DNA of 64,000 nucleotides from Solimonas sp. K1W22B-7 (GTDB lineage: Bacteria > Pseudomonadota > Gammaproteobacteria > Nevskiales > Nevskiaceae): positions 3,844,001-3,908,000 of the forward strand of contig NZ_CP031704.1 of the NCBI RefSeq assembly GCF_003428335.1, written 5' to 3'. Numbering within the stretch: the stretch's first letter is position 1; each line of letters opens with the position of its first letter. The translations under genes were made by a program, and so were the position numbers. The notes under the pieces were generated by a model. The model had not been told where the DNA came from and made no database searches. It worked only from the letters and a program-made list of their open reading frames with translations. Positions 7,555 through 64,000 of the stretch are shown here, piece after piece.

Positions 7555-7563
7555 AAAAGCACG

Positions 7564-7595: not shown

Positions 7596-7609
7596 CTTCT
7601 GCCCCTTTG

Positions 7610-44114: not shown

Positions 44115-44507
44115 CTATAAACCGTCGCCACGCAGTTCGGAATCACCCGCCATGCTGTCAAGCTCGCTAGCCATCACGGACTGGTGGACGCGCCGCGCCG
44201 CATCGAGGGCGGCGGCGCGGGCAACGCGGCCGTTGAAGCCGATGAAGCGCTGGTACAACAGGGAGCCCCGGTAGCTGACGCTCATCTGGCACCCCAACCG
44301 GGCCGCCGGCTTCTCGCTGACGACCAGGCCGTACTGGCCGTCCGGATCGAGGGCCTGCCAGGATTCGACGAAGGCGTCATAGAACTCGCGGCCGGCGAAG
44401 GTCCGCGTTTCGTTGGTCAGCACGCCGGGAATGTCGATGTCCGCGGCCTGTGCCGGCGACAGCAACAGACCGGCGCACAGCAACGCCGCGAGCAAGCCTT
44501 TCCCCAT
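44115..44507 (-). CDS. csgE: Curli assembly protein CsgE
   Basis: This 130-residue periplasmic protein starts at ATG 44505-44507, chosen because it gives a clean signal peptide (LLAALLCAGLLLSPAQA). The mature text DIDIPGVLTNETRTFAGREF and YDAFVESWQAL, followed by GLVVSEKPAARLG, aligns with E. coli CsgE, the periplasmic adaptor that caps CsgG and delivers CsgA. It is the first gene of the curli operon. The 108 bases upstream separate it from the end of the giant exoprotein gene, and no strong terminator is visible there. Confidence 0.92.
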   Translation of the reverse strand: MGKGLLAALLCAGLLLSPAQAADIDIPGVLTNETRTFAGREFYDAFVESWQALDPDGQYGLVVSEKPAARLGCQMSVSYRGSLLYQRFIGFNGRVARAAALDAARRVHQSVMASELDSMAGDSELRGDGL

Positions 44508-44615
44508 GTTCCGGTTCCCCTGCCCGACCTGTACGCGGCCGAGCAGCGGCAATGTAGAAGGCTCATGTTGCATGGGCATGGCAAACAGAAGAATCTGGTG
44601 GCGCCGAATCGATCC

Positions 44616-47600: not shown

Positions 47601-50600
47601 GTTGCCCTTGTTCGGGGCGCGGTTGGCGGCCAGCGCCAGCGGATCGGCGCTGCCGGTGTCGGCACCGGCGACGATGCGCAGCGAGGCCGAGTCGTAGGCC
47701 TTGCCGCCCTGGGTGCCGAGCAGCGAGGCGGTGGCCAGGGGCAGCGGGTTGCTGCCGCTGGCCACCGGCGCCAGCGAGTTGTCGACGTCGCTGGCGGCCG
47801 CGGCGGGATTGAAGGGGTTGACGGTCTGGTAGAAGCCGTCGCTGATCGAGGCGCCGATGCGCACGTCCCCGGCGGCGCGCAGGCTGATCGTCGGCGCGAG
47901 CCCGTCGGTACGGAAGTCCAGCACCGGATTGCCGTCGGCGCCGAGGTGGCCGGCCGCGAGGTTCCAGTCGCTGGCCACGTCGATGTCGCCGCCGCTGTTG
48001 CTCAGGTCGATGCCGGCGCGACGCTGCCAGCCGGCGGCCTGGCCCAGCGTGCTGTCGATCTGCCAGCCGGGCGAGCGCACGTAGTCCATCAGGGTTTCGG
48101 TGATGAAGCGGGCGTTGTCGCCGGTGCCACCACCCCCCGCGACACCGGAGGGATCGATCACGCCGCTGAAGTGCCGGGCACCGGTGCTGGTGTCGGCCGC
48201 ATCCCAGCGCGCATAGATCTCCAGTTCGGGGTCGGCATCGCCGCGGATCGTTGCACCCGCGGCCACGGTGACCGGTACGCGATGATCGTCGAGTACCGGC
48301 GCCCGCAGCTTGATCTCGCCGTCTTCACCGCTGACATCCAGCACCGCGCCGGCGGCGATGTCGATGCGCCCGGCCTGGTCCGCGCCCACCGCGCGATAGC
48401 CATGGTCGGCATCGGTCGCGGAGGAGTTGCCGGTGCCGACGCCGATCTCGATACGGCCGCCATCCGCCGCCGCCGTCGCGGCCTGCGCCAGCAGCTGGCC
48501 GTTGATCTCGACCGCGCGCTGGCCGTAGAGCGCGATGTCGCCGCCCTCGGCGCCGGCAGCGTCGATGGTGCCGTCGATGCGCACGCGGCCGCCATCGGCC
48601 ACCAGCTGCACCCGGTCGGCCGACAGGGTCCTGCCGGCGGAGAGATCGAGGTTGCCGCTGCCGCTGCGCAGGGCGATGCTGCCGTCGATGCCGCCCGCGG
48701 CGGCGCGCGTGGCAAGGTCGTCCAGGGCAATGGCGCTGCGCGAGTCCACCTGCAGCGACGCGCCATCGAAGCCGGCGGCACGATTGCCGCGCAGCTCGCC
48801 GGCCAGCGTGACGGAGCTGGCGTCGCTGCGCAGGATGATCTGGCCGGCGTCGCCGCCGGCCGCGCCGGCGGAAACGTCGAGGCGCGAACCGGCGCCCAGC
48901 TGTACCTGGCCCTGGCCGCTGTGCAGCTCGATCTGGCCGGCCGCCAGTGCCACTTTGCGGTCGTAGGCAGAGAACACGGCCCCGCCCGCCTCCAGGCGCG
49001 CGGCGGCGCCCAGCAGGATGTCGCCGCCGGCGTCGAAGCGGATGCTGCCGGCGCTGGCGCGCGCCGTGGTGTTCCAGTCGATGCTGTCGGCCTCCAGCGA
49101 CACCGAGCCGCCCAGGCCCTCGCTGGCGCTGCCGGCCGGGTTGGCCTGCGCGCCGCGGCCCTGCAGGCGGGAGATGTCGGACAGCGCCAGGTCGGCGCCG
49201 GCCACGGTGCCGAATACCGGCGTGTCCAGCGTCAGGTTGGCGCCGCCGAACAGCAGCGTGCCCTTGCCGGCGGCGAGCACCGCGCGGCGCGCCTGCAGGT
49301 CGATCTGGCCGAAACCGTCGAAACCGAAGCTGGAACCCGGGGTGCTGCGATCGCCCAGCAGTTCGATCTCGTCGGCCTTGACCGTCATCGTGCCGAGGCC
49401 GCCGGCACCGTAGGCGAAGGCACCCTGCTGGTTGCTGAAGACCACGCGTCCGGCCTCGATCACGGCGTCGCCGCCGTCGCTGATGACCTGGCCGCCGATG
49501 ATCTCCACCAGCTGGCGCGCGCGCAGGTCGACGTCGCCGAGCAAGGTCACGCCCTCGCTGGCCTGCAGGTAGACCTCGTTGATGCCGGCCAGCTGCTGCA
49601 GCAGGGTGCTGCCCAGCAGCAGGTCGCCGGCGCCGGAGGCCGCGTCGCCCGCGGACAGGGTGATGTTGCGGGTGCTGGCCGAGAACGCGTTGCCCTCGAT
49701 GTCGGCGCTCGATGCCAGGATCACGCCGCCGGTGGCGTCGAGGCTGACCGAGCCGCTGCCGGACAGCAGCGCGCCGGCACCGATGGTGACGGCGCCGAAG
49801 GCGACCTCGTCCTCGGGCCCGTCGATGCCGGAGACGACATTGCGGCCCGGCGTGACCTGGCGGTCGGCCGAGAGCCGCAGGAAGCCGCCATTGCCGCTGA
49901 CGTTCGCCTCATCGGGGTCGATGTCGATGACGGCACCGCTGGCGGGATCGTCGGGATCCAGCGCCTGGTGCTGGCGCGTGCCTTCGCCGCCGATGGAGAT
50001 TTCGTTGCCGCGACGGCCGGTCGCGGTGCCGTCGGCAACCAGCCTTGCACCCTGTTGCACCACCACGCCGTCGCCGCTGCTGTCGCCGCTGGCGACCAGG
50101 ACGATCTCGCCTGCGCGCAGGGCCGTGCTGTTGGCCGCGACCACCGTGTCGGCGCCGACGTAGAGTTCTTCGATGCCGTCGTCGGTGGGGCCGCCGGTGG
50201 CGCCCAGCAGCAGGCGGCTGGCGCCCAGTGCGTTGAGGCGATCCACGTCCAGCGTCAGGATGCCTGCGCCCGCGTCGCCGCTGTCGACGATCTGGATGCG
50301 CGGCGCGGACAGCTGCAGCTCCGGCCCGCTGAAGCCCTGCGGGGCCTTGCCGATGATGCTGCCGTCGAGGGTCAGGCGATTGACGCCGGCCAGCGCCAGC
50401 GTGCCGCCATCGGCGGGAGCACGCAGGGCGCGCTCGCTGGCCGCTTCCTGGGCGGTGAAGTAGCTGTTGAGGCTGCTGACGTCGTACTGCGAGTACTGCG
50501 ACCACACCGGCCGCGACTGCACCAGGAAGGTCGTGGTGTGCGCGTCGCGGGCGCCGCTGAGGTTGTCGGTGTAGTGGCCGGCGACCTGCAGCGTGCCGTC

Positions 50601-53600
50601 CGGCAGCTTCTGGTTGGTGGTGGAGGCGATGACGTCCTGGGCGCCGGCGCGGGTGTCCTGCACCAGGCGGAAAGCGCCCGGCAGGTTGGCGTAGGCACCG
50701 GGCAGCAGGGTGTAGACACCCTCGGGCAGGCCGGGAATGCCGCTGAGGAACACGGCGCGGCCGACCAGCGGGGCACGCGTCGATTCGCTGGCCGAAATCT
50801 GCGTGCCGCCGGCACCGTCCGGATCGCGCCGCGTGAACTCCGGATCGAAGGGCGCGACGCCGTCGTAGCCGGGAACGATCGCGTAGACGTCGCGGCCGTC
50901 CGGGTAGAGCGAGGCCAGCCGCTCCTCGCCACCGGTGAAGGAGACGTTGGTGGTCGACAGCACGTCGCGCGAGCCGCCGGTGCCGGCGACGAACTCGGTG
51001 GCCAGCAGGTCGCCGCCACCGCTGATGTCGATGCGGGCACCGTCCTTGACGTCCACATTGGCGCCGACCGCGCCGATGCGCTTGTTCGGGGACTGCGCCA
51101 GGTCGTCGACGCTGGCCTTGTAGTCGCCGGTGCCGTTGTAGACCAGGTTGAGGCCGTCGACGGTGCGGCCGTAGGGCACGACCAGGCCGGCCAGCGAGAC
51201 CGAGGTCAGGCTGTTGGCGCCGAACTGCACCTTGCGCGTGATGGTCTCGATGCCGGCCTGGGTCTTCACCGGGCCGTCGTAGGCGGTGATGTCGCCGGTG
51301 TCGTCCGGGTCGGCGAACACCAGGTCCTCGTAGCTGTCGGCGGCAGTCTCGCCCGCGCGCAGTTCGTAGTGGTAGGCGTTGTCCAGCGTCACCGTCGGCA
51401 GCGCGAAGCGGAAGTACGGCAGCAGGTCGTAGTTGAATACCTGCGAATCGTCGTTGACGCCCTCGAGGATTTCGTCGCCGGCGATGCCGAGCTGGATCTG
51501 CCCGCCCGGCGCGTAGAGCGCGCCGTTCTGCAGGATGTCCACGGCCGTGACGATCAGGCGGCCGCCGACCGACAGCGGCTTGTCGCCGCTGGTGGCGCCG
51601 GCGATGCGCTCGAATCGCACCACGGCGGTCGAAGGTTCGTAGATCGTGGCCAGGGTGGTCAGCGGCTCGCCGGTGTCGGGATCGCGCTGGGTCGGCTTGA
51701 TCACCAGTTCCAGGTCGCTGCGCCGCAGGTGGTTGTCGGCGATGATGATCTGGGTCTGCCCGGTGGCCGGGTAGATGCGGCTGGCGGTCATGGTCAGATT
51801 GCCGCCCACCAGCAGCACGCCCGGCAGGCTGCTGTACTCGCCGCTGCCGCCGGTGGCGAAGCTGCTGTACTGCGGCGGCGTCAGGAAGCGGATGTCCTCG
51901 CGGCCGGTCATCGAGACATCCTTGAAGTTCTCGATGGCCATCTGGCCACCGATATCGAGGATGCGCGAGTCGATCGTCAGCTCCGACAGCGGCTGGCGTG
52001 TTTCCGCCAGCCCCGGTGCGAGGATGTCCTCGAAGTCGTTGTAGACGCCGATGTCCTCGCTGTAGCCGTGGATCGCGACATAGGTCGCGGCCAGGTTGAC
52101 CTCGATCGGCTTCATGCGGCCGGTATCGGGTACCGCCGGCCGCGCGGTCAGCTGCATCGTGTTGATCTGCAGCGCGCGACCCAAGTTCAGGTCCAGCGAG
52201 CTGATGATGTCGATCGGCACCGGCTCCTTGGACAGGCTGGGGTCGCTGCCCAGCGACAGCGTCTCGATCCCGGAACCCTTGAGCACGTCGGTGGCGAAGG
52301 CGATAACGCCGCGCGGTGCCGTCGTCACGTTGCCGCCGGGTTCCTGGAACAGTTCCGGCACGCCAACGCTCAGGGCGGCGAGCGTCATGCGGCGCGCGCC
52401 GACGTAGCCGTTCTCCGGCTCCGCCAGCGGGTTCAGCGGCGTGACCGCCAGCGAGCCGCCCTGCGAAGTGCTGCCACCGCCACGCGCGTCGATGATGCCG
52501 TTGAAGTACAGGCCCGAGCCGGCGCCGATGCGCAGGCGCCCGGCGTCGCTGTACAGCAGGGTCGCTTCCTCGATGCGCGGACAGGGCGCCAGCAGGCCGA
52601 CGATGCCGCTGCTGCCGGAGATGTTGATGCGCGCGCCGTGGTTGCCGCGTGCCGGGTTCTCGTCGTCGTCGTCGGGCGTGCCGCCGCTGCCGCCGGTGTT
52701 GTCGCCGAACTTGGGCACGTTGTCGCCGGCCGCGGCGACGGCCTTGGCCGCCGCGTCCGCGGAGTCCTCGCAGTCGCCGGTGTCGGCGCAGTTGCGCGCG
52801 ACGATGTAGCCGGTATCGGCGCTCAGGGTGACGCTGCCGCCGTCGATGACGTCGCCGATGGGGATGTCGGTGGAGCCGGCGGGCACCGAACTGGTGTCGA
52901 GCAGCCGGGTGCCCGACACGTCGATCAGGCTGTCGACGCCGAGGAACACCGACTTGTTGTTGGAGGTATAGGGGTTGGCGATGACGCCGGGGTTGTTGAG
53001 GTAGCCGCCGCGCGCGGTATCGACCGTCAGCGTGACGTCGCCGCCATGGCTGACGATGCTGCCGAGCAGGGTCACCTGGTTGTGCGAGCCCAGCACGACG
53101 CGCGAGCGCGCGTCGGCCAGGATGCTGGCGCCCTCGTCGACCAGGGTGGTGCCGGTCACGCCGAAATCGCTGAGGTCGGGCGGCACCAGCAGGCCGTTGC
53201 GCTCGCCCGCCACCCAGTTGAGATAGTCGCCGGAATACAGCTCGAAGCTCACCGGACGGCGGTGCATCTCGTCGAGCTGGCCGACGCCGACGATACCGGC
53301 CTTGACCGCATCCTCCAGGTCGGTCCCGGTAGGACCGTAGGGCAGCAGGTCGGGTGCGCCCGGCCCGAAGTTGCGGATCACCAGGTTGCGCTGGCTGACC
53401 ACCACCTCCATGCCGGCAGCGACCGTGGCGTCGAATACGCCGTCGAGGCGGAACGCGCTGAAGCCGCCGGTGGTGAGATTGCCCTGCCCGTCGAAACCGC
53501 CGGCGCTGAACAGCGCGGGATCCAGGCCGAGGAAGCCCTGGGCGTCGCTGCCGCTGGAGCCGTCGATCAGGATGCCGGGGGCACGCAGCGACAGGCGGCC

Positions 53601-56600
53601 GCCGCGCTCGAAACCGTAGCCCAGCAGGGTGGCGCCCAGTTCGATGCTGCCGACGCCGTCGAGCAGCTCGGTGGGGGTCGCCAGTTCCAGGTTGCGGCCG
53701 AAGGCGGTGCCGTTGACGACGTAGGTGGCCAGTTCGATGGCACCGCCGACGCCGCGCACGACGTTGTCGCCGGTCCGCTGCACCTTGCCGTTGGGCGCGA
53801 CACGCACGCCGCTGATGGCGTCGAGCACGCTGCCGCTGTCGAGCAGGATCGAGCCGGTGAGGTTCTGCACGGTCGGCGGGATCGCCGGGAGGTCGATGAC
53901 GCCGTCGCCATCGACGTCCTGTTCCTCCTGGCCGGGATCGGTGAGCAGCGAGGACTGCAGGGTGCGCAGCGAGATCGAGCCGCCGTTGATGTAGGTGGCG
54001 CCGGTGGCCTCGTCGTCGCCCAGTCCTGCGTCGTTGACGAACTGGCCGCGCACGCTCAGCGTGCTGTCGCCGCTGACGGCGATGTCGCCCGTCACCGGAC
54101 CCTCGTCCTCCTGGGTGGTGGAGCCGTCCAGGAACGTGCGGCCGGTGGCGGTGATGCTGATGCGGCCGGCGGGCGCCGTGAGGTCGCCGTCGATCGACAC
54201 ACGCGAACCGACCAGCTCGATGACGGCACCGCTGATGCTGGCGCCGTTGTCGCCGGTGGCGCGGCCACCCGGAGTGACCTGGACCTGGGCGCCATCCACC
54301 ACGCGCACCTCGCCCCCCATGGTACCGGCGTCGGGCAGGTCGCCGTAGACGCGCAGCACGCTGGCTCCGGACTCGCGCACCATGCTGGCGTCCACCGGCG
54401 TCCACCAGGCCGGGTCGGCCAGGTCGGCGGCGTCGCCGCCACGCTCGAAGACATCCGAAGTGGCATCGACCCCGCGCAGCAGCGACGGATCCAGCGACTC
54501 GACGACCACGAAGCTCGGACCGGCGGCGGCGTTGGGCTGGTCGGGGAAGATCTGCGACAGGAAGTTGCCGCCGAACTGCAGGGTGCCGCCGATCGTGGGC
54601 TGCCCCGACTTGACCTGGCGGCGGCCGGACACCGCATGGGCGTCGACATCGGCCGCGATCAGGCTGGTGGTCTGGCCGAACACGGTCAGCGTGCCGCCGC
54701 GCCCGCCGGCGATGTCCTCGGGCTCGAACACCGTGGCGGAACCGGCCGCCAGCACCGGGTCGCGGTAGGTGTCGTTGATGTTCCAGCGCTCATGGCGCTC
54801 GATGGTATGGCCGGCAAAGCCGACGTAGCGCACGTTGGGATCGGCATCGGCGATGTCGACGATGCTGCCCGAGGCCGTCACCAGCCGCGTGGCATTGCTC
54901 ATGCCGCTGCCGTAGCGCAGGTAGCCGCCGGCAAGGTTCAGGGCCGAGCCCTGGTCGGCAATCACTTCGTTGCCCACCAGCTTGATGCTGCCGCCGTCGG
55001 TCAGCAGCTCGCGCACGCCGCGCGAGACCTGCTCGACGTAGCCGGCCAGGTTGGCCAGAGGCGTGCCGACCCACTGCACGCCGTCCTCGCGGGTGCCGAA
55101 GTCGCGGCTGTCGAAAACGATCGGCGCGCGGAACAGCACGCCGTCGCGCTGCAGCGGCGAATCGGCCAGTTCGTTCAGGCCCAGACGCGGCACGGTGATC
55201 AGCACGTTGGCCAGCGGCACGAAGACATCGGCCAGGCCGGCGACGTCGATGGTGGCGTCCGGCGCGATGTAGACGCGGCCGGCGACCCCCTCGTCGGGAT
55301 CCACCACCGGCACGACGGTACCGCTGTCCTCGGCGACGGCCTGCAGGCTGACGCTGTGGCCGGGCGCGACGATCATGGCGCCGCTGTCGAGCACGATGGC
55401 AGCGCCGCCGACGGTGACGCCCAGCGGCTTGAACTGTTCGTCGGCCGAGGCGGAGGAATTGGTCTGCGACTTGTCCGCGTCGGGCAGGATCGTGGTCAGC
55501 GAGTCGCCGCTGAAGCTGACCAGGCCATTGCGTCGCTGCAGCTCGGTGCTGTCGCTGGCCTTGAGGTCGATGAAGCCCTGGCGCGAGACGCTGGTGGTGG
55601 CCTGGATCACACCGTCCTGCTCGATGCGCGTGCCGATCAGCGACACGCCGCCGCGCTGCGAGCTGATCAGGCCATTGTTCTCGATGCTGAACACCGGCGT
55701 GATGTCGGCATTGCCCTGGCTGGCGTCGGTGATGCGCCCGGCCGAGGCCACGGTGTAGCGCGAGCCGCTGGCGGTGGCCCGCTGCAGCTGCACGCCGACG
55801 CCAGCGACCAGCGCCAGCTGGCTGTCCTTGCCCTCGACGGTGCCGTCGATGCGGATGTTGGGCGCCGCCAGCAGGCCGAAGCCCTCGTCCTTGACCGACA
55901 GGCGCGCGCCGGCCGCGACCACGATGCTGCCGGGCAGCGCCTCGTCCAGCAGTTCCTCGCTGGCGATGCTCAGCAGCGCACTGCCGCTGCGCTGCGACAG
56001 GCCCAGCACCGAACCCTGCGCGGTGCCCGGCGCCTGCGAGGTCAGGCCGCTGGTCAGGAACAGCTTGTTGCTGAAATCCAGGTCCGCGGCAGACGACTGG
56101 CGCAGGCCCTGCGAGCCGTCGCGCAGGTACAGCGGCAGGGTGGAGGCGACCAGCGAGTGCGTGTCGACGACGCTGCCGCCGTCGAACAGGATGCCGTTCT
56201 GGTTGATGATGTAGACCGCGCCCTCGGCCTTGATCGCACCCTGCACCACCGAGGGCTGCACGCCGGCCTTGACGCGGTTGAGCGCCACCCAGTCGTTCTG
56301 GCCGTCGGCCTGGGTGCCTTCGCGCTGGTCGATGTGCAGCGTGGTGTTGGCGCCGATGTTGAAGGTCTCCCAGGTCAGGATCGCCTTCTCCGCGGTCTGC
56401 TTCACCTCGACCGTGGTCTTGCCCTGCGCCACCGACTCGGTGGGCAGCTCGGCATTGACCCAGAGGCACTGCGAGGCGGTGAGGCAGGCATTGGCATTGC
56501 CGGCCTGCGCAGCCGCCTCGATCGCCGGCACCAGGCCGCCCGCGGCCATGCCGTCGGGCACCACGCCGCCCTGGTACTGCGGGTTCAGCGCGGCGGCGCG

Positions 56601-56942
56601 CTGGCGCACCATCTCCGCATCGATCTTCTGCAGCGACGTCTGCAGGCTGCGGATCGAGCGCTGTGCACGCTCCGCGGCGGCCTGGGGCGAGGAGGCGCCG
56701 TTGGGCAGCGTCGGCTGCGTCGGCGACCCCGGCGTCGGTGCCGAGGGCTGCGCCGCCTGCGCCGCACGCGCGGCATTGAAGTATTGCGGCGAGCCGAAGC
56801 CGGCCCCCGCCTGCACCGCCGGCGCGGACACCAGCGCCGGCATGCCGATCACGCTGAGCAGCGCCAGCCGCCGCAACTGGCCGCCGGCCGACAGCCGCCA
56901 CACCGGGTCACGCGGGTTCGTGAGGTTCTGCGGACGAGTCAT
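44616..56942 (-). CDS. Giant filamentous-haemagglutinin-type exoprotein (TpsA), 4108 residues
   Basis: This protein starts at ATG 56940-56942 with an extended signal peptide (RRLALLSVIGMPALVSAPAV, cleaved near VQA). A Pro/Ala and helical spacer leads to the TPS secretion domain, about residues 150-380, with NQNGILFDGGSVVDTHSLVA around residue 247. The next 3500 residues are a beta-helix of haemagglutinin-type repeats with many ISITATG-, GGDILL- and ARLEAGG-like strands. A DUF3739 domain (LLMWSSNGDINAGKGAKTSS, near residue 3942) precedes the C-terminus. The last 11 residues form Cys4098-X8-Cys4107, comparable to the surface anchor of Haemophilus HMW1. No toxin domain is visible. It should be exported by the TpsB encoded upstream and act as an adhesin. 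Confidence 0.93.
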   Translation of the reverse strand: MTRPQNLTNPRDPVWRLSAGGQLRRLALLSVIGMPALVSAPAVQAGAGFGSPQYFNAARAAQAAQPSAPTPGSPTQPTLPNGASSPQAAAERAQRSIRSLQTSLQKIDAEMVRQRAAALNPQYQGGVVPDGMAAGGLVPAIEAAAQAGNANACLTASQCLWVNAELPTESVAQGKTTVEVKQTAEKAILTWETFNIGANTTLHIDQREGTQADGQNDWVALNRVKAGVQPSVVQGAIKAEGAVYIINQNGILFDGGSVVDTHSLVASTLPLYLRDGSQGLRQSSAADLDFSNKLFLTSGLTSQAPGTAQGSVLGLSQRSGSALLSIASEELLDEALPGSIVVAAGARLSVKDEGFGLLAAPNIRIDGTVEGKDSQLALVAGVGVQLQRATASGSRYTVASAGRITDASQGNADITPVFSIENNGLISSQRGGVSLIGTRIEQDGVIQATTSVSRQGFIDLKASDSTELQRRNGLVSFSGDSLTTILPDADKSQTNSSASADEQFKPLGVTVGGAAIVLDSGAMIVAPGHSVSLQAVAEDSGTVVPVVDPDEGVAGRVYIAPDATIDVAGLADVFVPLANVLITVPRLGLNELADSPLQRDGVLFRAPIVFDSRDFGTREDGVQWVGTPLANLAGYVEQVSRGVRELLTDGGSIKLVGNEVIADQGSALNLAGGYLRYGSGMSNATRLVTASGSIVDIADADPNVRYVGFAGHTIERHERWNINDTYRDPVLAAGSATVFEPEDIAGGRGGTLTVFGQTTSLIAADVDAHAVSGRRQVKSGQPTIGGTLQFGGNFLSQIFPDQPNAAAGPSFVVVESLDPSLLRGVDATSDVFERGGDAADLADPAWWTPVDASMVRESGASVLRVYGDLPDAGTMGGEVRVVDGAQVQVTPGGRATGDNGASISGAVIELVGSRVSIDGDLTAPAGRISITATGRTFLDGSTTQEDEGPVTGDIAVSGDSTLSVRGQFVNDAGLGDDEATGATYINGGSISLRTLQSSLLTDPGQEEQDVDGDGVIDLPAIPPTVQNLTGSILLDSGSVLDAISGVRVAPNGKVQRTGDNVVRGVGGAIELATYVVNGTAFGRNLELATPTELLDGVGSIELGATLLGYGFERGGRLSLRAPGILIDGSSGSDAQGFLGLDPALFSAGGFDGQGNLTTGGFSAFRLDGVFDATVAAGMEVVVSQRNLVIRNFGPGAPDLLPYGPTGTDLEDAVKAGIVGVGQLDEMHRRPVSFELYSGDYLNWVAGERNGLLVPPDLSDFGVTGTTLVDEGASILADARSRVVLGSHNQVTLLGSIVSHGGDVTLTVDTARGGYLNNPGVIANPYTSNNKSVFLGVDSLIDVSGTRLLDTSSVPAGSTDIPIGDVIDGGSVTLSADTGYIVARNCADTGDCEDSADAAAKAVAAAGDNVPKFGDNTGGSGGTPDDDDENPARGNHGARINISGSSGIVGLLAPCPRIEEATLLYSDAGRLRIGAGSGLYFNGIIDARGGGSTSQGGSLAVTPLNPLAEPENGYVGARRMTLAALSVGVPELFQEPGGNVTTAPRGVIAFATDVLKGSGIETLSLGSDPSLSKEPVPIDIISSLDLNLGRALQINTMQLTARPAVPDTGRMKPIEVNLAATYVAIHGYSEDIGVYNDFEDILAPGLAETRQPLSELTIDSRILDIGGQMAIENFKDVSMTGREDIRFLTPPQYSSFATGGSGEYSSLPGVLLVGGNLTMTASRIYPATGQTQIIIADNHLRRSDLELVIKPTQRDPDTGEPLTTLATIYEPSTAVVRFERIAGATSGDKPLSVGGRLIVTAVDILQNGALYAPGGQIQLGIAGDEILEGVNDDSQVFNYDLLPYFRFALPTVTLDNAYHYELRAGETAADSYEDLVFADPDDTGDITAYDGPVKTQAGIETITRKVQFGANSLTSVSLAGLVVPYGRTVDGLNLVYNGTGDYKASVDDLAQSPNKRIGAVGANVDVKDGARIDISGGGDLLATEFVAGTGGSRDVLSTTNVSFTGGEERLASLYPDGRDVYAIVPGYDGVAPFDPEFTRRDPDGAGGTQISASESTRAPLVGRAVFLSGIPGLPEGVYTLLPGAYANLPGAFRLVQDTRAGAQDVIASTTNQKLPDGTLQVAGHYTDNLSGARDAHTTTFLVQSRPVWSQYSQYDVSSLNSYFTAQEAASERALRAPADGGTLALAGVNRLTLDGSIIGKAPQGFSGPELQLSAPRIQIVDSGDAGAGILTLDVDRLNALGASRLLLGATGGPTDDGIEELYVGADTVVAANSTALRAGEIVLVASGDSSGDGVVVQQGARLVADGTATGRRGNEISIGGEGTRQHQALDPDDPASGAVIDIDPDEANVSGNGGFLRLSADRQVTPGRNVVSGIDGPEDEVAFGAVTIGAGALLSGSGSVSLDATGGVILASSADIEGNAFSASTRNITLSAGDAASGAGDLLLGSTLLQQLAGINEVYLQASEGVTLLGDVDLRARQLVEIIGGQVISDGGDAVIEAGRVVFSNQQGAFAYGAGGLGTMTVKADEIELLGDRSTPGSSFGFDGFGQIDLQARRAVLAAGKGTLLFGGANLTLDTPVFGTVAGADLALSDISRLQGRGAQANPAGSASEGLGGSVSLEADSIDWNTTARASAGSIRFDAGGDILLGAAARLEAGGAVFSAYDRKVALAAGQIELHSGQGQVQLGAGSRLDVSAGAAGGDAGQIILRSDASSVTLAGELRGNRAAGFDGASLQVDSRSAIALDDLATRAAAGGIDGSIALRSGSGNLDLSAGRTLSADRVQLVADGGRVRIDGTIDAAGAEGGDIALYGQRAVEINGQLLAQAATAAADGGRIEIGVGTGNSSATDADHGYRAVGADQAGRIDIAAGAVLDVSGEDGEIKLRAPVLDDHRVPVTVAAGATIRGDADPELEIYARWDAADTSTGARHFSGVIDPSGVAGGGGTGDNARFITETLMDYVRSPGWQIDSTLGQAAGWQRRAGIDLSNSGGDIDVASDWNLAAGHLGADGNPVLDFRTDGLAPTISLRAAGDVRIGASISDGFYQTVNPFNPAAAASDVDNSLAPVASGSNPLPLATASLLGTQGGKAYDSASLRIVAGADTGSADPLALAANRAPNKGNVILSGHQTASSNAPGNEGRQIVTPTMVRTGIGSIDVVAARDILITDTQAPGVIYTAGHAGIEGVVRPSQTALQAAAGGQAPVLDTGNVQPRDAGDLRLSAGRDIVAVTTVTDSDGSRTGAAGTDLSQAWWPWMQSSCFTTAVGCGARPDSSSINFGMFAQGLLSMGGDVSIQAGRDVNSLSVSMPTTWTRAGGQREDSIGGGGELEVTAGGDIRGGSYFVSSGGGELRALGVIADSVIALQDAKIGAEAAQGISIGGVFNPSYLFTNFDANAYSAASAVRLVTAAGDARLGTAAVLPGSRYGSVPGVSRSLVQDGAFYVLPAHLSVAAASGNLILSRGGELFPSADGQLELLAQRNITLQGRSNSGERLGLIDALASLLPSIDNPLPPAALPATGSYIDQGPQSNFLLRDPALLHAHDTEPVRIYSVAGSLLNGYRATDAAVAADPDGVPQYVGSGSGLRLLLDKPASIRAGLDIVNLYFSGQNFYDSDITTIAAGRDLLDPALQRTRFVPLIELGGPGTLAVSAGRNIGPITSAGDARDAGYLFKGSEQFPGIRTVGNSNNLYLDRSGADISVSYGIGPGMKLEAFAETYINPAVNHDPLNEKDLLGTPDYSGALLAFVRQQLLDAQRRDGQDRSAQIAALNPAAAWTVFKGLALEQRQKFVGTVFLDILNQVGLDYNAVTRRVVDRNHPQGVEYNADNILYAGQYRRGYQAIENLFPASLGYTQNALDGSRNGALVTRSTGTLDMRGSTVQTRFGGDIDILGPGGPLLIGSTSAPPFTAETGNTAAVGPSSQGILALQEGAVRLFIDQSVLLAQSRVFTQQGGDLLMWSSNGDINAGKGAKTSSSIPPLAFSCDDNLFCTVDTQSQVSGAGIAALQSKPGLPAGNANLVAPAGTVDAGDAGIRVSGNLNVAAQQVANADNIQTDSGSFSGQAPAADAGTAAAANAAAAAVAASAEQATGGRKRDGELELFVEILTPAASSECEAGKPGKDCL

Positions 56943-56976
56943 GGTCAGGCTCCTGCGGCGTGTCGGGATGCGAAGC

Positions 56977-57423
56977 TCAGGCGACGGCGGGCACCGCTGC
57001 CGGCGCATGCACCGGCAGGGTCCGAAGGTAGGTGATGAATTCGTGCAGCACGCGGTCCCACAGCTCGCAGTAGCCGCGCAGGCACAGCGGCGCGTCGCCG
57101 GCACCGATGAAGACGTCCATCGCCAGCACCAGGGTCTGCTGCGTGGTGTAGAGGCGCGCAAAGCGCTTGCTTTCGTTCCAGCGGCCGACCTGCGCGGGGC
57201 TCACCTGCCCCTCGACGTGGATCAGACAGCTGAAGGTGAAGTCGATGTAGCGGTCGGCCTGGTCCGGCGCGCGATTGCCCGGCATGAGGATGAAGCCCAG
57301 GCCCTGCACGGCGCTCTGCAGCATCGGCCGGCCATCCTGTTCCGCCAGCTGCGCACGCAGGCCGCTGGCGCGCAGGGTCTCGGCGGCTTCTTCGAGGGTG
57401 AGGCTGGAAATGAGGGGATTCAT
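56977..57423 (-). CDS. YbjN-family protein
   Basis: This 148-residue cytosolic protein has YbjN-domain features: SLTLEEAAETLRASGLRAQL, GLGFILMPGNR, YIDFTFSCLI, RFARLYTTQQTLVLAMDVFI and a C-terminal helical pair. The YbjN fold resembles type III secretion chaperones (shown for AmyR of Erwinia). It overlaps the upstream coiled-coil gene by ATGA (57420-57423) and lies 34 bases before the giant exoprotein gene. A chaperone role for that exoprotein is suggested by this position but is not proven. Confidence 0.82.
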   Translation of the reverse strand: MNPLISSLTLEEAAETLRASGLRAQLAEQDGRPMLQSAVQGLGFILMPGNRAPDQADRYIDFTFSCLIHVEGQVSPAQVGRWNESKRFARLYTTQQTLVLAMDVFIGAGDAPLCLRGYCELWDRVLHEFITYLRTLPVHAPAAVPAVA

Positions 57424-58061
57424 GGGTTCCCGTCCTTGCTGCTGTCGTCGGCGGCGGCCGGCGCTTGGCGCACGGTCAGGTCGCCGACGCGGATTTCATA
57501 GGCCTGCGCCTGGCGTTCGAGCTGGGCACCGCGCAGGCCGGTGATCGGCTCTTTGGCCAGCATGGCGTCGGCCACCCCGCGGTCGCGGTAGCGCACGATC
57601 AGCTCATTGCTGATCGACACCAGGGCCTGGTTGCTGGCGGTGCACTGCTGCAGCGCCTGGCCGTTGCGCTCGGCGTTGCGGTGCTCGGCGAGCAGCTTCT
57701 GCAGTGCATCGAGCCGGCCGCGGCGCTCGGTCTCGGCACTGGCCCGCTGCGCGGCCAGCGCGGTCCTGTGCTCGGCGGCCTGCTGTTCGAGCTGCTGGCG
57801 CAGCTGCCCCTGCTCGCCGCGCAGGCGGCGCAGGTCCTTCTCCGCCCGCTGGGTCTTCTCGGGATCTTCCGCCGGCTTGGCGCTGGCCTGGGCCAGCTGC
57901 GCCTTGAGGCTGGCGTTCTCGTCGGCCAGCGTACGCATCTGCAGGATCGTGCTGCGCAACTGCTCGCGCAGGCGGTCGTCCATCTTCTCGGCCTGCGCCG
58001 GCAGCACGGCCACAAGGCCGAGCATTCCCGCGATCCATGCAGCGTTGCGTCGGGCGATCAT
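57420..58061 (-). CDS. Periplasmic coiled-coil protein
   Basis: This 213-residue protein is read from ATG 58059-58061, which is 8 bases from an AGGGG site. A TTG two codons upstream is less well placed. It has a signal peptide (WIAGMLGLVAVLPAQA). Residues of about 25-140 form a continuous coiled coil rich in Gln, Arg, Glu and Ala (LREQLRSTILQMRTLADENA, KDLRRLRGEQGQLRQQLEQQ). A short C-terminal domain follows (YEIRVGDLTVRQAP). No family is recognised. In this operon it may be a periplasmic spacer or scaffold linking the TonB/porin module to the secretion system. The stop overlaps the YbjN gene start. Confidence 0.72.
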   Translation of the reverse strand: MIARRNAAWIAGMLGLVAVLPAQAEKMDDRLREQLRSTILQMRTLADENASLKAQLAQASAKPAEDPEKTQRAEKDLRRLRGEQGQLRQQLEQQAAEHRTALAAQRASAETERRGRLDALQKLLAEHRNAERNGQALQQCTASNQALVSISNELIVRYRDRGVADAMLAKEPITGLRGAQLERQAQAYEIRVGDLTVRQAPAAADDSSKDGNP

Positions 58062-58073
58062 GTGCAATCCCCT

Positions 58074-59969
58074 TCAGAACTTGACGGTGACGTCGGCCTG
58101 CCAGACGTCGATGGCGAGCTTCTGCGAGCTGATCTCGTTGGCACCGAAGTAGCGCAGGCCCAGCACCGCCGAACGCGAGAAGGCCCAGCTGCCGCCAAGG
58201 TAATAGCCCTTGGCATTGGTGCCGCCGAGGTGGAAATCGGAGTCGGTGAAGGCGTCCAGCACCGCGTCGCTCTCGATGCGGCGGTAGCCCCCCAGCAACT
58301 GCCAGTCGCCCCGCATGCTCACCACCGGCCGGCCAACGCGCAGCTGTGCCTGCCAGGCATCGCCGCCGCCCTCCCAGGGGCAGACCACGGTCGTGGGGCT
58401 GGTCGGACGGCAGGGGCCGAGGTTGTTGTCGGGCGACAATGCCCGCACCTCGTCCTCGTCCAGCGCCAGGTTCTTCGCGGCGTCGAAATCCACGGCCAGG
58501 CGCACGTTGTTGTCCAGCGGCATCTCCCAGGTGGCGGACAGGGCCAGCACCGTGAACTCGGTGGCCAGGCCGAAGAACTGGAAATCCGGATCGCCCGGAT
58601 TGATCGGCTGGGTGTTGCGGATCTGGAAGACCGTGTTGCCCTTCTGCATGAAGCCCGGGCGCGAATCGTCGGTGTCGCAGGCTACCGAGGCGCTCACGGC
58701 GTTGCAGGGGCTGGACAGCTCGCCCTCGACGTCGAAGAACTTGTAGAACCCGGCGCCGGCACGCAGCAGCTGCTTGTCGATGAAGTCGGTGCGCAGCTCG
58801 ACCTGCGTCCCCCACATCCACTTGTTGTGGCCTTCGTCCTTGACCAGGCTGCTGGACGGATAGTTGGGATCGGTGTTCTCCACCGAGTAGAAGCCGCTGG
58901 CGATACGGAGTACGCGCTCGGAGGTGAGCGGGTAGCGATAGCGCAGGCCGATGCCGTCGAAGCTCAGGTCGCGGTCCCAGATCAGGTCGGTGCCGGTGGC
59001 GAACTGGTTGGGGCTGCGGCCGATGTCCACCGCCAGGCGGCTGGTCGGCTTGTAGCGGATGTAGGCGCGGTCCAGCACCAGGCTGGGCTTGTTGAAGCTG
59101 GTGCCCGCGGTCTGGTTGTTGCTGACCGGGTTGATGGTGTTGCCGGTGGTCAGGCGGATGCTGAGATCGACTTCCTCGGACACCGCATAGCCCAGGCCGA
59201 GCTTCGCACGCAGCTTGGGGATGTCGCGGTCCTCGCTGGTGTTGAGCGTCGGCACCGTCAGCGGCTGGCCCTGCGGCGGCAGCGTGGTGTTGATCGGCCC
59301 GGTACGGTTGGCTTCCTGGTAGTTGACGAACAGGCCGTTGAGATCGCCGAAGCTGCTGTGCTCGTAGCGCATCATCACCTCGCCCTCGAGGCGTACCTTG
59401 CGCACCCACTCGGGCACGGACTCGGGCTGCGCCCAGTTCTCGCGCCGCGCCTGGTCGAGGATTTCGGCGCGCAGTTCGTCCTTGATCTGGCCGCGCTGCG
59501 TCTCCGACAGGTAGGGCACGCGCACCTTGCCGCCCTTGGCATTGCGGTCGGCGGCGGCCGGCGCGACGGGCGCGGCGGCCTTGGGAACCGGCGGCGCCGG
59601 CGGCGGCAGCGACTCGCCCAGACCCGGGGTCATCTGCATCTCGACGGGCACCAGCGGCGGCTGCGCCACCGGCGGCACCGGTGCCGAGGCCGCTTCGGCC
59701 GGCGTCAGGCCCGGTGTGGGTTCCGCGGGCAGCGCGCCGGCAGGCAGCGCGGAATCCACCACCGGTTCCGCGGCGGGTTCGACCGGCGCGGGCTTGACCA
59801 GCGCTTCCGGCGCGGCCTGCGCCACGGCCGTTTCGGCAGAAGATCCGGCAGGCTCGGCGGCGGCCGCGACCAGCGGCAGCAGCAGCATGAGGGCCGCCAG
59901 CGGCTGCATTCCAGGCTTGCGGCCGGGCTGCGAGGCAGCGATAGCTTCGGATTTCATTGTGATGCCCAT
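58074..59969 (-). CDS. Putative porin, outer-membrane beta-barrel
   Basis: This 631-residue protein starts at ATG 59967-59969, with a second ATG four codons later. A signal peptide (LAALMLLLPLVAAAAEPA) is followed by a Pro/Ala-rich region of about 120 residues. Residues of about 170-631 are a beta-barrel of the putative-porin type: RLEGEVMMRYEHSSFGDLNG, LRAKLGLGYAVSEEVDLSIR, LVLDRAYIRYKPTSRLAVDI, GLRYRYPLTSERVLRIASGF, and a last strand QADVTVKF ending in Phe. It begins 12 bases after tonB and ends 12 bases before the coiled-coil gene. It may be the outer-membrane partner of the TonB encoded upstream. No TonB box is obvious. Confidence 0.8.
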   Translation of the reverse strand: MGITMKSEAIAASQPGRKPGMQPLAALMLLLPLVAAAAEPAGSSAETAVAQAAPEALVKPAPVEPAAEPVVDSALPAGALPAEPTPGLTPAEAASAPVPPVAQPPLVPVEMQMTPGLGESLPPPAPPVPKAAAPVAPAAADRNAKGGKVRVPYLSETQRGQIKDELRAEILDQARRENWAQPESVPEWVRKVRLEGEVMMRYEHSSFGDLNGLFVNYQEANRTGPINTTLPPQGQPLTVPTLNTSEDRDIPKLRAKLGLGYAVSEEVDLSIRLTTGNTINPVSNNQTAGTSFNKPSLVLDRAYIRYKPTSRLAVDIGRSPNQFATGTDLIWDRDLSFDGIGLRYRYPLTSERVLRIASGFYSVENTDPNYPSSSLVKDEGHNKWMWGTQVELRTDFIDKQLLRAGAGFYKFFDVEGELSSPCNAVSASVACDTDDSRPGFMQKGNTVFQIRNTQPINPGDPDFQFFGLATEFTVLALSATWEMPLDNNVRLAVDFDAAKNLALDEDEVRALSPDNNLGPCRPTSPTTVVCPWEGGGDAWQAQLRVGRPVVSMRGDWQLLGGYRRIESDAVLDAFTDSDFHLGGTNAKGYYLGGSWAFSRSAVLGLRYFGANEISSQKLAIDVWQADVTVKF

Positions 59970-59981: not shown

Positions 59982-60695
59982 TTAACCTTTGAATCGGATC
60001 GCGCGGTTGCGTGCGCCCAGGCGCACGTTGACCGGCTGCGGCATGTCGCCCGGCGGTGGCTCGTCGATCTGCGCCATCGAGCGAAGGGTGTCGAGAATCA
60101 TCTGGTCCAGGTCGCTCTCGCCGGTGGAACCCACCAGCTTGACGCGCTCGACGCGGCCGGCAGCGTCGAGCCAGACCTGGGCGGTCACGTCGTGCTTCTT
60201 GTCCTTCAGGCGATTGCGCCGCTCCATCGCCTGGAGAACGCGGTCATGGACCTTGCTGTAGTACCAGCCGAAACGCGTGCCGCCGCCACCGCCGCCATTG
60301 CCGTAGCCGCTGCCGCCGGGCTTTCCGGCCAGGCCGAAGCCGTCGCCGGCACCCTCACCCACCGCGTCCAGCGCCGGCGGGCCGGGCGGTTCGTCGGAAG
60401 GCGGATCTTCGGACGGCGGCTTGGTGTCGAGTTCCTCGACCTTCATCTCCGGCTGCGGCGTCTTCTCCTCGACCACCTTCTCTTCCGGCTTGGGCGGAGG
60501 CGGCGGGGGTGGCGGCGGCGGAGGCGTCAGCAGCTTGAGCTGCACCACCGAGGACACGGCTTTCTTCGGCGTATCCTTCTTGCCGGTCAGCATCAGCACG
60601 ACACCGACCAACAGCGCCAGGCCGACCGCGCCGACCAGCCAGACGGCCAGGGGGCGCCGGCGTTTTTTGCCCTTGCGGTGGTCGGCGCTGGCCAT
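59982..60695 (-). CDS. Energy transducer TonB
   Basis: This 237-residue protein has an N-terminal basic segment and one membrane helix (AVWLVGAVGLALLVGVVLML). The periplasmic spacer has 11 consecutive prolines and a Lys/Glu/Pro-rich stretch, then a Gly-rich hinge (GSGYGNGGGGGG). A TonB C-terminal domain follows (YYSKVHDRVLQAMERRNRLK, VTAQVWLDAAGRVERVKLVG and MILDTLRSM). It transmits energy from ExbB-ExbD to an outer-membrane partner. It begins 10 bases after exbD, with the porin gene 12 bases downstream. It is a second TonB by context rather than the housekeeping one, since it sits inside the secretion operon. Confidence 0.92.
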   Translation of the reverse strand: MASADHRKGKKRRRPLAVWLVGAVGLALLVGVVLMLTGKKDTPKKAVSSVVQLKLLTPPPPPPPPPPPKPEEKVVEEKTPQPEMKVEELDTKPPSEDPPSDEPPGPPALDAVGEGAGDGFGLAGKPGGSGYGNGGGGGGTRFGWYYSKVHDRVLQAMERRNRLKDKKHDVTAQVWLDAAGRVERVKLVGSTGESDLDQMILDTLRSMAQIDEPPPGDMPQPVNVRLGARNRAIRFKG

Positions 60696-60705: not shown

Positions 60706-61107
60706 TTACTTGACCAGGCGCTGGGTCACCAGGCCCAGCTGCGTGATGTCGAGTTCGCCGAGCAGGGCAAGCACGTCCACCACGTTCTGGTACTGGGTCT
60801 CGCTGTCACCGCGCACGATCACCGGCAGGTCCGGCGTTTCGGCCTTCTTCTGCTGCAGCCGCGTCTTGAGCTCCTCGCGGGTCACTGGGATGGCATCCAT
60901 GAAGATGGCACCCTGGTTGTTGATGGTGATCGCCACGGTCTTGGACTTGGCCAGGCTGGGCTGGGCGCTGGCCTTGGGCAGGTTGACCTTGACGCCCTGC
61001 ACCGCGGCGGTGGTCATGACGATGAAGATCACCAGCAGCACGTACGCCAGGTCCAGCATCGGCGTGACGTTGATGTCGTCGTAGGGTTTGTCTTCCTGCA
61101 TCTGCAT
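60706..61107 (-). CDS. exbD: ExbD/TolR-family proton-channel subunit
   Basis: This 133-residue protein has one membrane helix, with the conserved proton-carrying aspartate in NVTPMLDLAYVLLVIFIVMT (Asp19). The periplasmic domain includes LPKASAQPSLAKSKTVAITI and the ExbD-typical LPVIVRGDSETQYQNVVDVL. It pairs with the ExbB domain encoded 15 bases upstream and TonB encoded 10 bases downstream. It is complete. Confidence 0.95.
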   Translation of the reverse strand: MQMQEDKPYDDINVTPMLDLAYVLLVIFIVMTTAAVQGVKVNLPKASAQPSLAKSKTVAITINNQGAIFMDAIPVTREELKTRLQQKKAETPDLPVIVRGDSETQYQNVVDVLALLGELDITQLGLVTQRLVK

Positions 61108-61122: not shown

Positions 61123-62973
61123 TCAATCCGCGATCGCGTGAAGCGCCGCGGGATCGTTGTAGTTCTCGGCCATGCTGGTGACGAAGGCGTCGATGAACAC
61201 GTGCATTTCCGCCACGCATTCCTTGATCCGCACCGTCAGGTAGTTGTAGCCGAACAGCGCCGGGATGGCGACGGCCATGCCGGCCACGGTGGCGGCCAGT
61301 GCCGCCGAGATGCCGGGTGCGATGGCGTTGACGTTGACCTCGCCCGCCGCGGCGACGCCGGCGAAGGTGATCATGACGCCGACCACGGTGCCGAGCAGGC
61401 CGATGAAGGGGCCGCCGGAGATCGCGATGGTCAGCAGCACCATGCGCTTGTTGAGCGCCTGCATCTCGCGCACCAGGGTCGAATCGAGCTTGGCGCGGAT
61501 CGCATGGATCGACTGCTCGGAGAGCGTGTCGCTGTAGCGCCCGTGGCGCTTCTCGCTGCTCAGGCGGCGGTGCAGTTCGCCGATGCCGGTATTGAACATG
61601 TGCGTCAGCGGCGAATCACGCATGCGCTCCAGTGCTTCGTCTTCCAGCTTCAGCCGGACGCTGGCCTTGCCGTCGGGTACCGTGGCCTGGTGCAGCACGG
61701 CGAAGTCGCCGTCGGCCAGTTCGTAGGCGTCGAGGAACACGCGGTTGGCCTTGGACACCTGGCCGACCTGGCTGGCCTTGACGGCCATCAGGTACCAGCT
61801 GTAGACCATCATCAGCATCAGGATGATGATCACGATCCAGCCGTCGAGCGTGACCGAACCCATGATGATGCCGACGTAGCCGGTGCTCCAGGACGACTGC
61901 ACCTCGTCGGCGCCCAGCGTCACCAGCTTGTCGGCGACACCCTGGTTCTTGGCCTCCAGGCGCAGCATCGCGACATCGCGCGCGCTGCTGGCCAGCTTCA
62001 TTTCGTCGATCTCGCCGCGGAACGGCATTTCCACCGGGGCACCGTTGACGCCGCCCTGGCCGCCCAGCGTGGCGGCGCCGGCGATCACCGGCAGGCCGCG
62101 CGCCAGCTGTCCGCGCGCCTCGCCGTCGACGTAGAGCGTCGACTGCGCCGCGGTCGCCACCACCGCGAGGTGATGCCACTCGCTGTCGGCGATCGATGCC
62201 GCCGGGGCGGATTCCTGCAACGGGCCGGGGCCGTCGGCGAAGCCGAAGTACGGCGCGCCGCTGCGCAGGGCGACGACGAAGGAGCGCCCGGCGTCGCGCT
62301 GCGCGTAGATCACCGCCTCGGGGTCGGTGGCGCCGGTCTTGATCCAGGCCGACCAGGTCAGCGAGCCGCCCGCCGGCAGGGCCAGCGAGGGCGTGGCGGG
62401 CAGTGCCAGCACGGCGCTGCCGTCGAACTTGGCGGAGCCACCGATCAGGCCGCCGTCGTTGCCGGCCACGGCGCTGACGGCGTGATGCTGGAACGAGGTC
62501 GCATCCTGTGCCGGAGTACCGTTCTCGCCGAAGTGGTAGACCAGCTTCTGGTCGGCGTCGTAGCTGCCCTTGGCGTCGCCTTCGCCGGCGGCGTTGGTGT
62601 TGCCCCAGTACAGCCACAGCTTGACCGGCGTGCCGGCGGCCAGCTTCGGCACCTGCACCCAGATGAAGCCGAGGTTGAACACCGGGTCGAGCTTTTCGAT
62701 GTGGAACTTCAGCGTGGTCTTGTCGTCCTCCGCCACGATGCGCAGGTCGGAACCGTCGGCATTGGCGTCGGCGAAGGGGAACACGCCCTCGTGCAGGCGC
62801 AGCAGCACGACGCCGTTGTTCAGCTCGCCGCTGACGCCGGCCGCGGCCGGGTCCAGCGTGATCTGCTTGCGGAAGGACCAGTCATGATTCCACCAGGCGC
62901 TGGCTGGCTGCGACCAGGGCAGCAGCACGGCGGCGGCCAGTGCTGCGCGCTTCAAGACTTGACGTACGGACAT
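61123..62973 (-). CDS. ExbB-type proton channel fused to an exported DUF2341-LamG domain
   Basis: This 616-residue protein has AAGGGAG before ATG 62971-62973 and a signal peptide (LAAAVLLPWSQPASA). It continues WWNHDWSFRKQITLDP (DUF2341), a LamG/concanavalin-like lectin fold over about residues 150-350 (LVYHFGENGTP, LTWSAWIKTGATDPEAVIYA, EWHHLAVVATAAQSTLYVDG), then a membrane helix at about 376-397 (GWIVIIILMLMMVYSWYLMA). An ExbB/TolQ core (GGPFIGLLGTVVGVMITFAG, ISAALAATVAGMAVAIPALF) ends it. Normal ExbB has about 240 residues and no periplasmic domain of this kind. The fusion may sense or bind polysaccharide or protein in the periplasm. Confidence 0.9.
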   Translation of the reverse strand: MSVRQVLKRAALAAAVLLPWSQPASAWWNHDWSFRKQITLDPAAAGVSGELNNGVVLLRLHEGVFPFADANADGSDLRIVAEDDKTTLKFHIEKLDPVFNLGFIWVQVPKLAAGTPVKLWLYWGNTNAAGEGDAKGSYDADQKLVYHFGENGTPAQDATSFQHHAVSAVAGNDGGLIGGSAKFDGSAVLALPATPSLALPAGGSLTWSAWIKTGATDPEAVIYAQRDAGRSFVVALRSGAPYFGFADGPGPLQESAPAASIADSEWHHLAVVATAAQSTLYVDGEARGQLARGLPVIAGAATLGGQGGVNGAPVEMPFRGEIDEMKLASSARDVAMLRLEAKNQGVADKLVTLGADEVQSSWSTGYVGIIMGSVTLDGWIVIIILMLMMVYSWYLMAVKASQVGQVSKANRVFLDAYELADGDFAVLHQATVPDGKASVRLKLEDEALERMRDSPLTHMFNTGIGELHRRLSSEKRHGRYSDTLSEQSIHAIRAKLDSTLVREMQALNKRMVLLTIAISGGPFIGLLGTVVGVMITFAGVAAAGEVNVNAIAPGISAALAATVAGMAVAIPALFGYNYLTVRIKECVAEMHVFIDAFVTSMAENYNDPAALHAIAD

Positions 62974-62995: not shown

Positions 62996-64000
62996 TCAGA
63001 AACTGCCGAGGAGGCGGAACAGCACGCGGTCGTCACCGCTGGCCGTCGGTGCGCCACCGCCACTCGGCGTGTCGGTATTTAGTTCGAGCGTGAACGGCAC
63101 GTCCTGCAGGGCCTTGGCCCAGACCAGGTCCAGGCTGACGTACTCGCGCAGGCGCGCGCTCAGGCCGGCACCGGCGCTGAACAGCGTGAAATCGCGCGGA
63201 GCGTCGCCATCGGGAAACGGCCCGTGGTCGATCAGGCGCGCGGCGTCGGTGAACAGGTAGGGCTGCAGCTCGGTCAGGTAGCTGGCCCACTTGTGCGAGG
63301 CGAAGTAGTCGGGCAGCGAGGGCAGGCGCAGTTCGAGGTTGCCGACCAGGCCGCGGTCGGCCGAGGCCTCGGAGTCGAAGTAGCCGCGCACCGTGTCGAT
63401 GCCGCCAGCCGAGAGCTTTTCCGCCGGCAGCAGGGCCTGGCCGGTGATCTGGCCGGTCAGCCGGGCATTGATGGAAAAGCCCCTGGGCAGCGAGATCTGG
63501 TCGCCCAGCGAGGCGCGCAGGTAGATCGACTGGCCCTCGGCGCCGTAGCGGGTGAAATCGAGCTCGGTGTCCTGGCTGCCGACCACGCCGCTGGTGAAGA
63601 TCGCCGCCAGGCTGCTGTCGATGCGATGGCTGCTGCTGGCGTAGGTCTGCGAGAAGGTCAGGTTGATCGGCAGGTAGTCCACCGGCGCCAGTTCCACCAG
63701 GGACCCCTGGGCGCTGCGAACGATGAGCGTGGACTTGTAGCTCTTGTAGTCGGCGCCGAAGCTCAGCGAGGGGTACCAGTTCTCGATCGACGTGCTGAAG
63801 CGCTTGCTGGCGCTGAAGCCCACCGTCAGGTTGTCGGTGACCGAATTGACGCCGGGCCGCAGCGCAATGTCGCTGTCGGTCTTGAGCACGGTGAAGTCCA
63901 TGCTCCAGGACGGATCCGGCATCAGGGCCTGGTAGGTCGCCGACAAGGTGGTACCGTCGTCGGTACGCTCCGGCGCCGTCATGTACAGCAGCTTGAAGCT
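62996..64000 (-). CDS. Two-partner secretion transporter TpsB (ShlB/FhaC-like), partial
   Basis: The frame runs off the right edge. The 334 visible C-terminal residues are outer-membrane beta-strands (WSMDFTVLKTDSDIALRPGV, LSFGADYKSYKSTLIVRS, RLREYVSLDLVWAKALQDVP) ending in Phe. The Omp85/TpsB loop-6 motif is present as VRGYFDSEASADRGLVGNLE. The N-terminal plug and POTRA domains must lie beyond 64000. It is the first visible gene of the operon, 22 bases before the ExbB-fusion gene, and is the expected exporter of the 4108-residue exoprotein. Confidence 0.9.
   Translation of the reverse strand, partial: SFKLLYMTAPERTDDGTTLSATYQALMPDPSWSMDFTVLKTDSDIALRPGVNSVTDNLTVGFSASKRFSTSIENWYPSLSFGADYKSYKSTLIVRSAQGSLVELAPVDYLPINLTFSQTYASSSHRIDSSLAAIFTSGVVGSQDTELDFTRYGAEGQSIYLRASLGDQISLPRGFSINARLTGQITGQALLPAEKLSAGGIDTVRGYFDSEASADRGLVGNLELRLPSLPDYFASHKWASYLTELQPYLFTDAARLIDHGPFPDGDAPRDFTLFSAGAGLSARLREYVSLDLVWAKALQDVPFTLELNTDTPSGGGAPTASGDDRVLFRLLGSF

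Follow-up and report, generated by a model that had tools for sequence, protein, structure and literature searches.

The window, by which we mean the whole stretch of 64,000 nucleotides of Solimonas sp. K1W22B-7 DNA that was analyzed, carries a minus-strand gene cluster in the order TpsB, an ExbB fusion protein, ExbD, TonB, Porin_5, a coiled-coil protein, YbjN and a giant TpsA with DUF3739 (Table 1). The fusion is encoded by a single open reading frame with no internal stop codon, which begins with an ATG at 62973, preceded by AGGGAG (a good ribosome site), and ends at 61123. It is separated from the TpsB stop by 22 bp and from the ExbD start by 15 bp, and the adjoining ExbD is a cognate B subunit with a conserved transmembrane aspartate. 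Thus, the full set of genes of the Pdt type (TpsB, ExbB, ExbD, TonB, Porin_5, a PA0697-like protein, YbjN and TpsA) is present in the window. A frame of 4283 codons on the plus strand (44184-57035), antisense to tpsA (44616-57161, minus strand), is a by-product of high GC content and not a gene.

Table 1. Genes of the cluster and features of the ExbB fusion protein (positions in the window)
Feature	Position	Strand	Evidence
TpsB (ShlB/FhaC) transporter; runs past the window end, full gene 572 aa, 62996-64714 (L032)	62996..64000	-	PF03865 2.4e-10 on the part inside the window
ExbB/TolQ-type motor subunit with exported DUF2341-LamG head, 616 aa	61123..62973	-	ORF, Pfam, AlphaFold model
Predicted signal peptide, residues 1-26, cleavage between AxA and WW	62896..62973	-	sequence; model helix 2-20; invariant A26 W27 W28
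DUF2341 with its N-terminal strand, residues 27-137	62563..62895	-	PF10102 4.2e-12; domain model
LamG / ConA-like jelly roll, residues 140-345	61939..62556	-	PF13385 1.2e-16; Z 24.6 to AbnA 5hp6
Short juxtamembrane helix and TM1, residues 366-398	61780..61878	-	model helices 366-372, 376-420
TM2-TM3 core, residues 486-604; Ala557 at the TM3 Glu position of TolQ/ExbB	61162..61518	-	PF01618; comparison
ExbD/TolR, 133 aa, TM Asp kept (TPMLD)	60706..61107	-	PF02472 4.4e-29
TonB-family transducer, proline-rich, without SHLS motif or TM His	59982..60695	-	PF13103 2.4e-8
Porin_5 outer-membrane protein, proline-rich N-terminus	58074..59969	-	PF16930 1.2e-142
Exported coiled-coil-like protein, PA0697 position	57420..58067	-	no Pfam family; neighbor in 64/66 loci
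YbjN family protein, PA0698 position	56977..57423	-	PF10722 6e-5
TpsA, 4108 aa, TPS secretion domain and C-terminal DUF3739	44616..56942	-	PF05860 1.2e-15, PF12545 1.1e-33

The fusion protein consists of a signal peptide, DUF2341, a LamG/ConA-like jelly roll, TM1 and a TolQ/ExbB core, in this order. DUF2341 (residues 73-137) scored over its curated cut-off, as did Laminin_G_3 (residues 194-333; 61.6 bits with a cut-off of 27.6), and MotA_ExbB was detected at residues 484-590 (3.4e-27; 95.2 bits with a gathering score of 22.9). The signal peptide, its cleavage site and hence the periplasmic location of the head are predicted from sequence. A single-chain AlphaFold2 model, built from an alignment of 59 sequences, had a mean pLDDT of 86 and contained an N-terminal helix (residues 2-20), two beta domains (34-147 and about 140-345) and helices at 366-372, 376-420 (TM1), 486-543 and 548-604. 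The first-pass annotation of this DNA had described the gene, with no strand given, as an ExbB proton channel with an exported DUF2341-LamG head; Pfam, AlphaFold2 and fold searches agreed in placing these parts on one chain, and the periplasmic position of the head was likewise supported as a prediction. The annotation had also considered that the LamG fold might prove absent. It was predicted confidently: the jelly roll (residues 140-345) matched the arabinanase AbnA (5hp6) with a Z score of 24.6 and an rmsd of 2.1 Å over 189 residues; domain 4 of AbnA was crystallized with a sugar. In the fold search the core matched E. coli TolQ in the TolAQR complex (9ddm_D; TMt 0.80). DUF2341 modeled alone (mean pLDDT 84.5) formed a beta-sandwich whose best Z score against the PDB was 6.0, with no Foldseek match at E<0.001, which does not imply a new fold. 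Matches of the jelly roll to clostridial neurotoxin binding domains reflected only the common ConA-like fold, with nothing toxin-like in them.

It had further been proposed that the head is a sensor, in which LamG or DUF2341 gates the passage of protons on binding cargo or a glycan. The likeness of the jelly roll to sugar-binding modules (AbnA domain 4, Z about 24) agrees with this idea, and the short helix that joins the head to TM1 could provide a conformational link. However, the jelly roll was less conserved than DUF2341 (mean KL 2.19 compared with 2.8-2.9, and with 3.44 for TM2-TM3), and in the alignment no strictly kept LamG binding site was seen besides motifs general to the fold. In addition, plug or gate elements of the known motors of this class sit on the B subunit, which counts against a valve on the A subunit. 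We consider a sensor role improbable. The lower conservation of the jelly roll, which is among the less conserved parts of the head, also makes it slightly less probable that the head has one small ligand under strict conservation. The stronger conservation of DUF2341 and TM1 would be more in keeping with contacts between proteins close to the membrane than with a fixed sugar as the ligand.

Full-length relatives of the fusion were found in 8 of 60 sampled relatives of the source genome. A scan of GTDB genomes yielded 410 relatives, and the best 80 of the 410 were examined as loci; these are the best-scoring ones and include many from Bradyrhizobium, so that counts among them are not independent. 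In 79 of these 80 loci the whole fusion lay in a single frame, and the remaining one ended at a contig edge. The loci came from gamma-, alpha- and beta-proteobacteria and from Verrucomicrobia, and copies occurred on plasmids of Klebsiella, Burkholderia, Cupriavidus, Variovorax, Methylosinus and others. The possibility that a sequencing error or a missed stop had merged two genes, which the first-pass annotation had named as one way in which its reading could fail, was therefore excluded, as homologs with 43-85% identity from many genera share the same open fusion; nearly all relatives do so, and an artefact now has practically no probability left. The gene is not an unusual one-off. A widespread operon has the fusion as its ExbB without variation, and RefSeq uses two labels for such products, "MotA/TolQ/ExbB proton channel family protein" and "DUF2341 domain-containing protein". 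A 2025 paper, in the part that concerns these proteins, describes DUF2341 as an N-terminal appendage of MotA/ExbB-like A subunits and gives no function for it there (PMC12505986). The fusion is thus an established and widespread family that is already in databases. In a midpoint-rooted tree of cores, all 92 fusion cores formed one clade (support 0.72) apart from 24 non-fused cores, which were mostly from one order; a single origin of the fusion is likely on these sequences.

The neighbors of the fusion and their order were highly constant. Wherever the contig reached far enough in the best 80 of the 410 loci, we found ExbD (76/76), TonB (73/73), Porin_5 (70/70), TpsB (68/69), the coiled-coil protein (64/66), TpsA (49/70) and YbjN (40/66). 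TpsB seemed to be missing from several clusters, but this was ruled out: where the two genes did not adjoin, the contig of the fusion also carried TpsB, in most cases upstream of TpsA. At one locus (L187, G307:C1:2226000-2240000) TpsB was divergent from the fusion operon, unlike in most loci, and on another contig (L182/L183, G070:C49) the porin and coiled-coil genes were about 27 kb from the fusion, ExbD and TonB genes, with TpsA and TpsB between them. When 369 gammaproteobacterial genomes were sampled independently, 22 had the fusion, 23 had DUF3739 TpsA and 21 had both (Fisher P 6e-31); full-length Porin_5 occurred in 24 genomes, which included all 22 with the fusion (Fisher P 2e-33), both P values being inflated by shared ancestry among the genomes. 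Two genomes had Porin_5/DUF3739 and lacked a full fusion. One (G160) had an assembly break, with the C-terminus of the fusion visible at the start of a contig, and the other (G258) was a metagenome-assembled genome that is 64% complete. The fusion, Porin_5 and DUF3739 TpsA are therefore near-obligate operon partners. The fusion itself is very probably the ExbB (A) subunit of a dedicated motor, belonging to a class of two-partner secretion (TPS) systems that have a DUF3739 TpsA and a Porin_5 protein.

The trio of fusion, ExbD and TonB was also found without an adjoining TPS cluster (L183, L189, L191, L192 and L203). These copies were near T2SS genes or had nothing in common in their surroundings. 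For example, in L191 (G178:C3:147000-161000; region 808-10558) the trio was located directly behind gspC-D-E-F and a DsbC-like gene. The opposite strand encoded a protein of 216 residues that contains part of a TPS secretion domain, and after it came apparent further T2SS genes. On a Methylomagnum plasmid (L203, NZ_AP019784.1, 11602-22293) the trio was accompanied by a homolog of the coiled-coil protein, with no TPS or porin genes, and its neighbors included two alkaline phosphatases, PhoX and Alk_phosphatase. Because the trio exists apart from TPS clusters, the partner of the head need not be TpsA.

What the motor does at the outer membrane can be read in two directions. In one, it serves uptake: TpsA or TpsB would capture a phosphate-related nutrient that Porin_5 imports with TonB energy, in the manner of HxuA-HxuC. 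The P. aeruginosa copy is controlled by phosphate starvation (PMC5422565, PMC7035377), the TpsB gene of the window is divergent from a gene for a PstS-like PBP_like_2 protein (L032, 15568-17277, beyond the window end), and the Methylomagnum copy with its phosphatases would also agree. However, the cluster contains no TonB-dependent receptor, a search for Pho boxes in 20 kb around the operon gave nothing better than chance, and the TPS-free copies have T2SS genes or no shared genes around them. We consider uptake unlikely. Our preference, held with slightly less than even confidence, is that the motor drives export or display of TpsA; TpsA as a cargo fits the operon.

To compare the motor residues, we aligned the cores of fused and non-fused proteins. 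The glutamate of TM3, which we take to be E176 of E. coli ExbB, was absent from all 90 fusion cores (Ala in 85, Gly in 3 and Ser in 2) and present in 22 of 24 true non-fused ExbB/TolQ cores; two proteins that appeared to be non-fused exceptions at this position (L009 and L171) were themselves fusions. The partner TonB proteins, whose reading frames were counted with a hydrophobicity filter in this high-GC DNA, lacked the SHLS motif in 75 of 75 cases, with a histidine only at the edge of the TM segment in four, whereas readable TonB/TolA paralogs of the same genome kept the TM histidine. The ExbD aspartate was retained in all 68 family members in which the motif was found. The fusion scored below the NCBIfam equivalog cut-offs of all models tried (TIGR02797, TIGR02805 and TIGR02796), with 121 bits for tolQ, the best (cut-off 221), 59.9 for exbB (206.2) and 62.9 for exbB2 (135.35). 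As judged by these alignments, the proton site of the fusion systems is kept while two elements of TonB coupling are lost together, and this combination (90 cores with no TM3 glutamate, partner TonB without SHLS, ExbD with its aspartate) is new in this analysis. The double loss could mean that coupling differs from that of ExbB and TonB.

The head might also be an anchor to peptidoglycan or another glycan, which would fix the ring of A subunits to the wall and thus enable the motor to exert a pull on TonB. Its fold is of a carbohydrate-binding type, the MotAB stator must be anchored, and ExbD of the window, with 133 residues, has no long OmpA-like anchor. In the accepted picture, however, the A ring turns and the B subunits are fixed, so that an anchored A ring would invert the motor, and TolQ and ExbB work without such heads. 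An anchor is, in our opinion, about as doubtful as uptake.

The explanation that we prefer is a dedicated TonB-ExbB-ExbD motor for one class of TPS systems, with the heads forming a docking crown; taken as a whole, we think it has an even chance of being correct. By analogy with the known structures of TolQ, ExbB and MotA, five A subunits would surround two ExbD chains and place five DUF2341-LamG heads as a periplasmic crown around ExbD and TonB. Protons would pass via the ExbD aspartate and TonB would transmit force to the outer membrane. Less certainly, the crown may be a docking platform for periplasmic or outer-membrane partners and not a proton valve, a view that we hold at somewhat under even chance. 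Candidates that it could hold near the motor are TpsA in transit, the N-terminus of Porin_5, which is rich in proline, the coiled-coil protein and the cell wall. At the outer membrane, the motor would then power the secretion, release or display of TpsA through TpsB and Porin_5.

A bolder form of this proposal is that the DUF3739-TpsA class of TPS is proton-driven by a motor of its own, that the lectin-like heads are the receiving site for the giant passenger or for the machinery in the outer membrane, and that the coupling represents a third mode besides those of TonB and Tol. The third mode is suggested because the TM3 glutamate and SHLS are both missing; we regard the bolder form as speculative and rather unlikely, albeit less so than an anchor or uptake. 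The fusion was already in databases, and the locus was on record in P. aeruginosa without characterization. The point worth noting is that a motor, a TPS transporter, a porin and a giant TpsA almost invariably occur together, in several classes and in a second phylum. TPS secretion is regarded as independent of an electrochemical gradient (PMC5422565), and if the motor powers secretion or display, a large group of systems departs from this textbook rule. That the TM3 glutamate and SHLS are missing together also offers a natural experiment on the coupling between motor and transducer.

Several known systems share parts of this arrangement. TolQ and ExbB of the Tol-Pal and TonB systems have the same core fold and an operon with ExbD and TonB, and tolQ was the best NCBIfam model; the ExbB of the window differs from them in its exported head of 340 residues, in Ala, Gly or Ser at the TM3 Glu position and in its scores below the cut-offs. 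TtpC of the Vibrio TonB2 system resembles ExbB and has a long N-terminal part that is exported. TtpC works beside a separate ExbB, whereas the fusion is the sole ExbB of its cluster and has a different head (DUF2341-LamG). TonB2 function requires TtpC (PMC6957404). Haem piracy by HxuCBA is similar in that a TPS pair has a TonB-dependent function; however, HxuC is a TonB-dependent receptor, of which the cluster in the window has none, and hxuCBA has no dedicated motor. Among the "generic ion transporters" of PMC12505986 are A subunits with an N-terminal DUF2341; LamG is not mentioned in that paper, and its section on the appendage makes no link to two-partner secretion. The closest counterpart is found in P. 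aeruginosa, where the order is pdtA, phdA, pdtB, exbB2 (PA0693), exbD2, tonB4, PA0696 (putative porin), PA0697, PA0698 (YbjN), PA0699 (PpiC) and, further on, PA0701 (LysR) (PMC7035377, PMC2729926), and where a 2020 paper lists the trio as a putative, uncharacterized TonB system (PMC7035377). TpsA follows YbjN in the window and precedes TpsB in P. aeruginosa, and no ECF sigma/FecR pair adjoins TpsB in the window, whereas some relatives, such as that on a Methylosinus plasmid, have sigma/FecR next door. An annotated K. quasipneumoniae plasmid, with the order TpsA, TpsB, ExbB (the fusion), ExbD, TonB, porin, hypothetical protein, YbjN, PPIase, hypothetical protein and LysR, ties the fusion to the P. 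aeruginosa locus gene by gene. Thus, the PdtA/PdtB-ExbB2-ExbD2-TonB4-PA0696-PA0699 locus of the PUMA3/VreI regulon has the same gene order and gene types as the fusion operon, the head being matched through gene order only.
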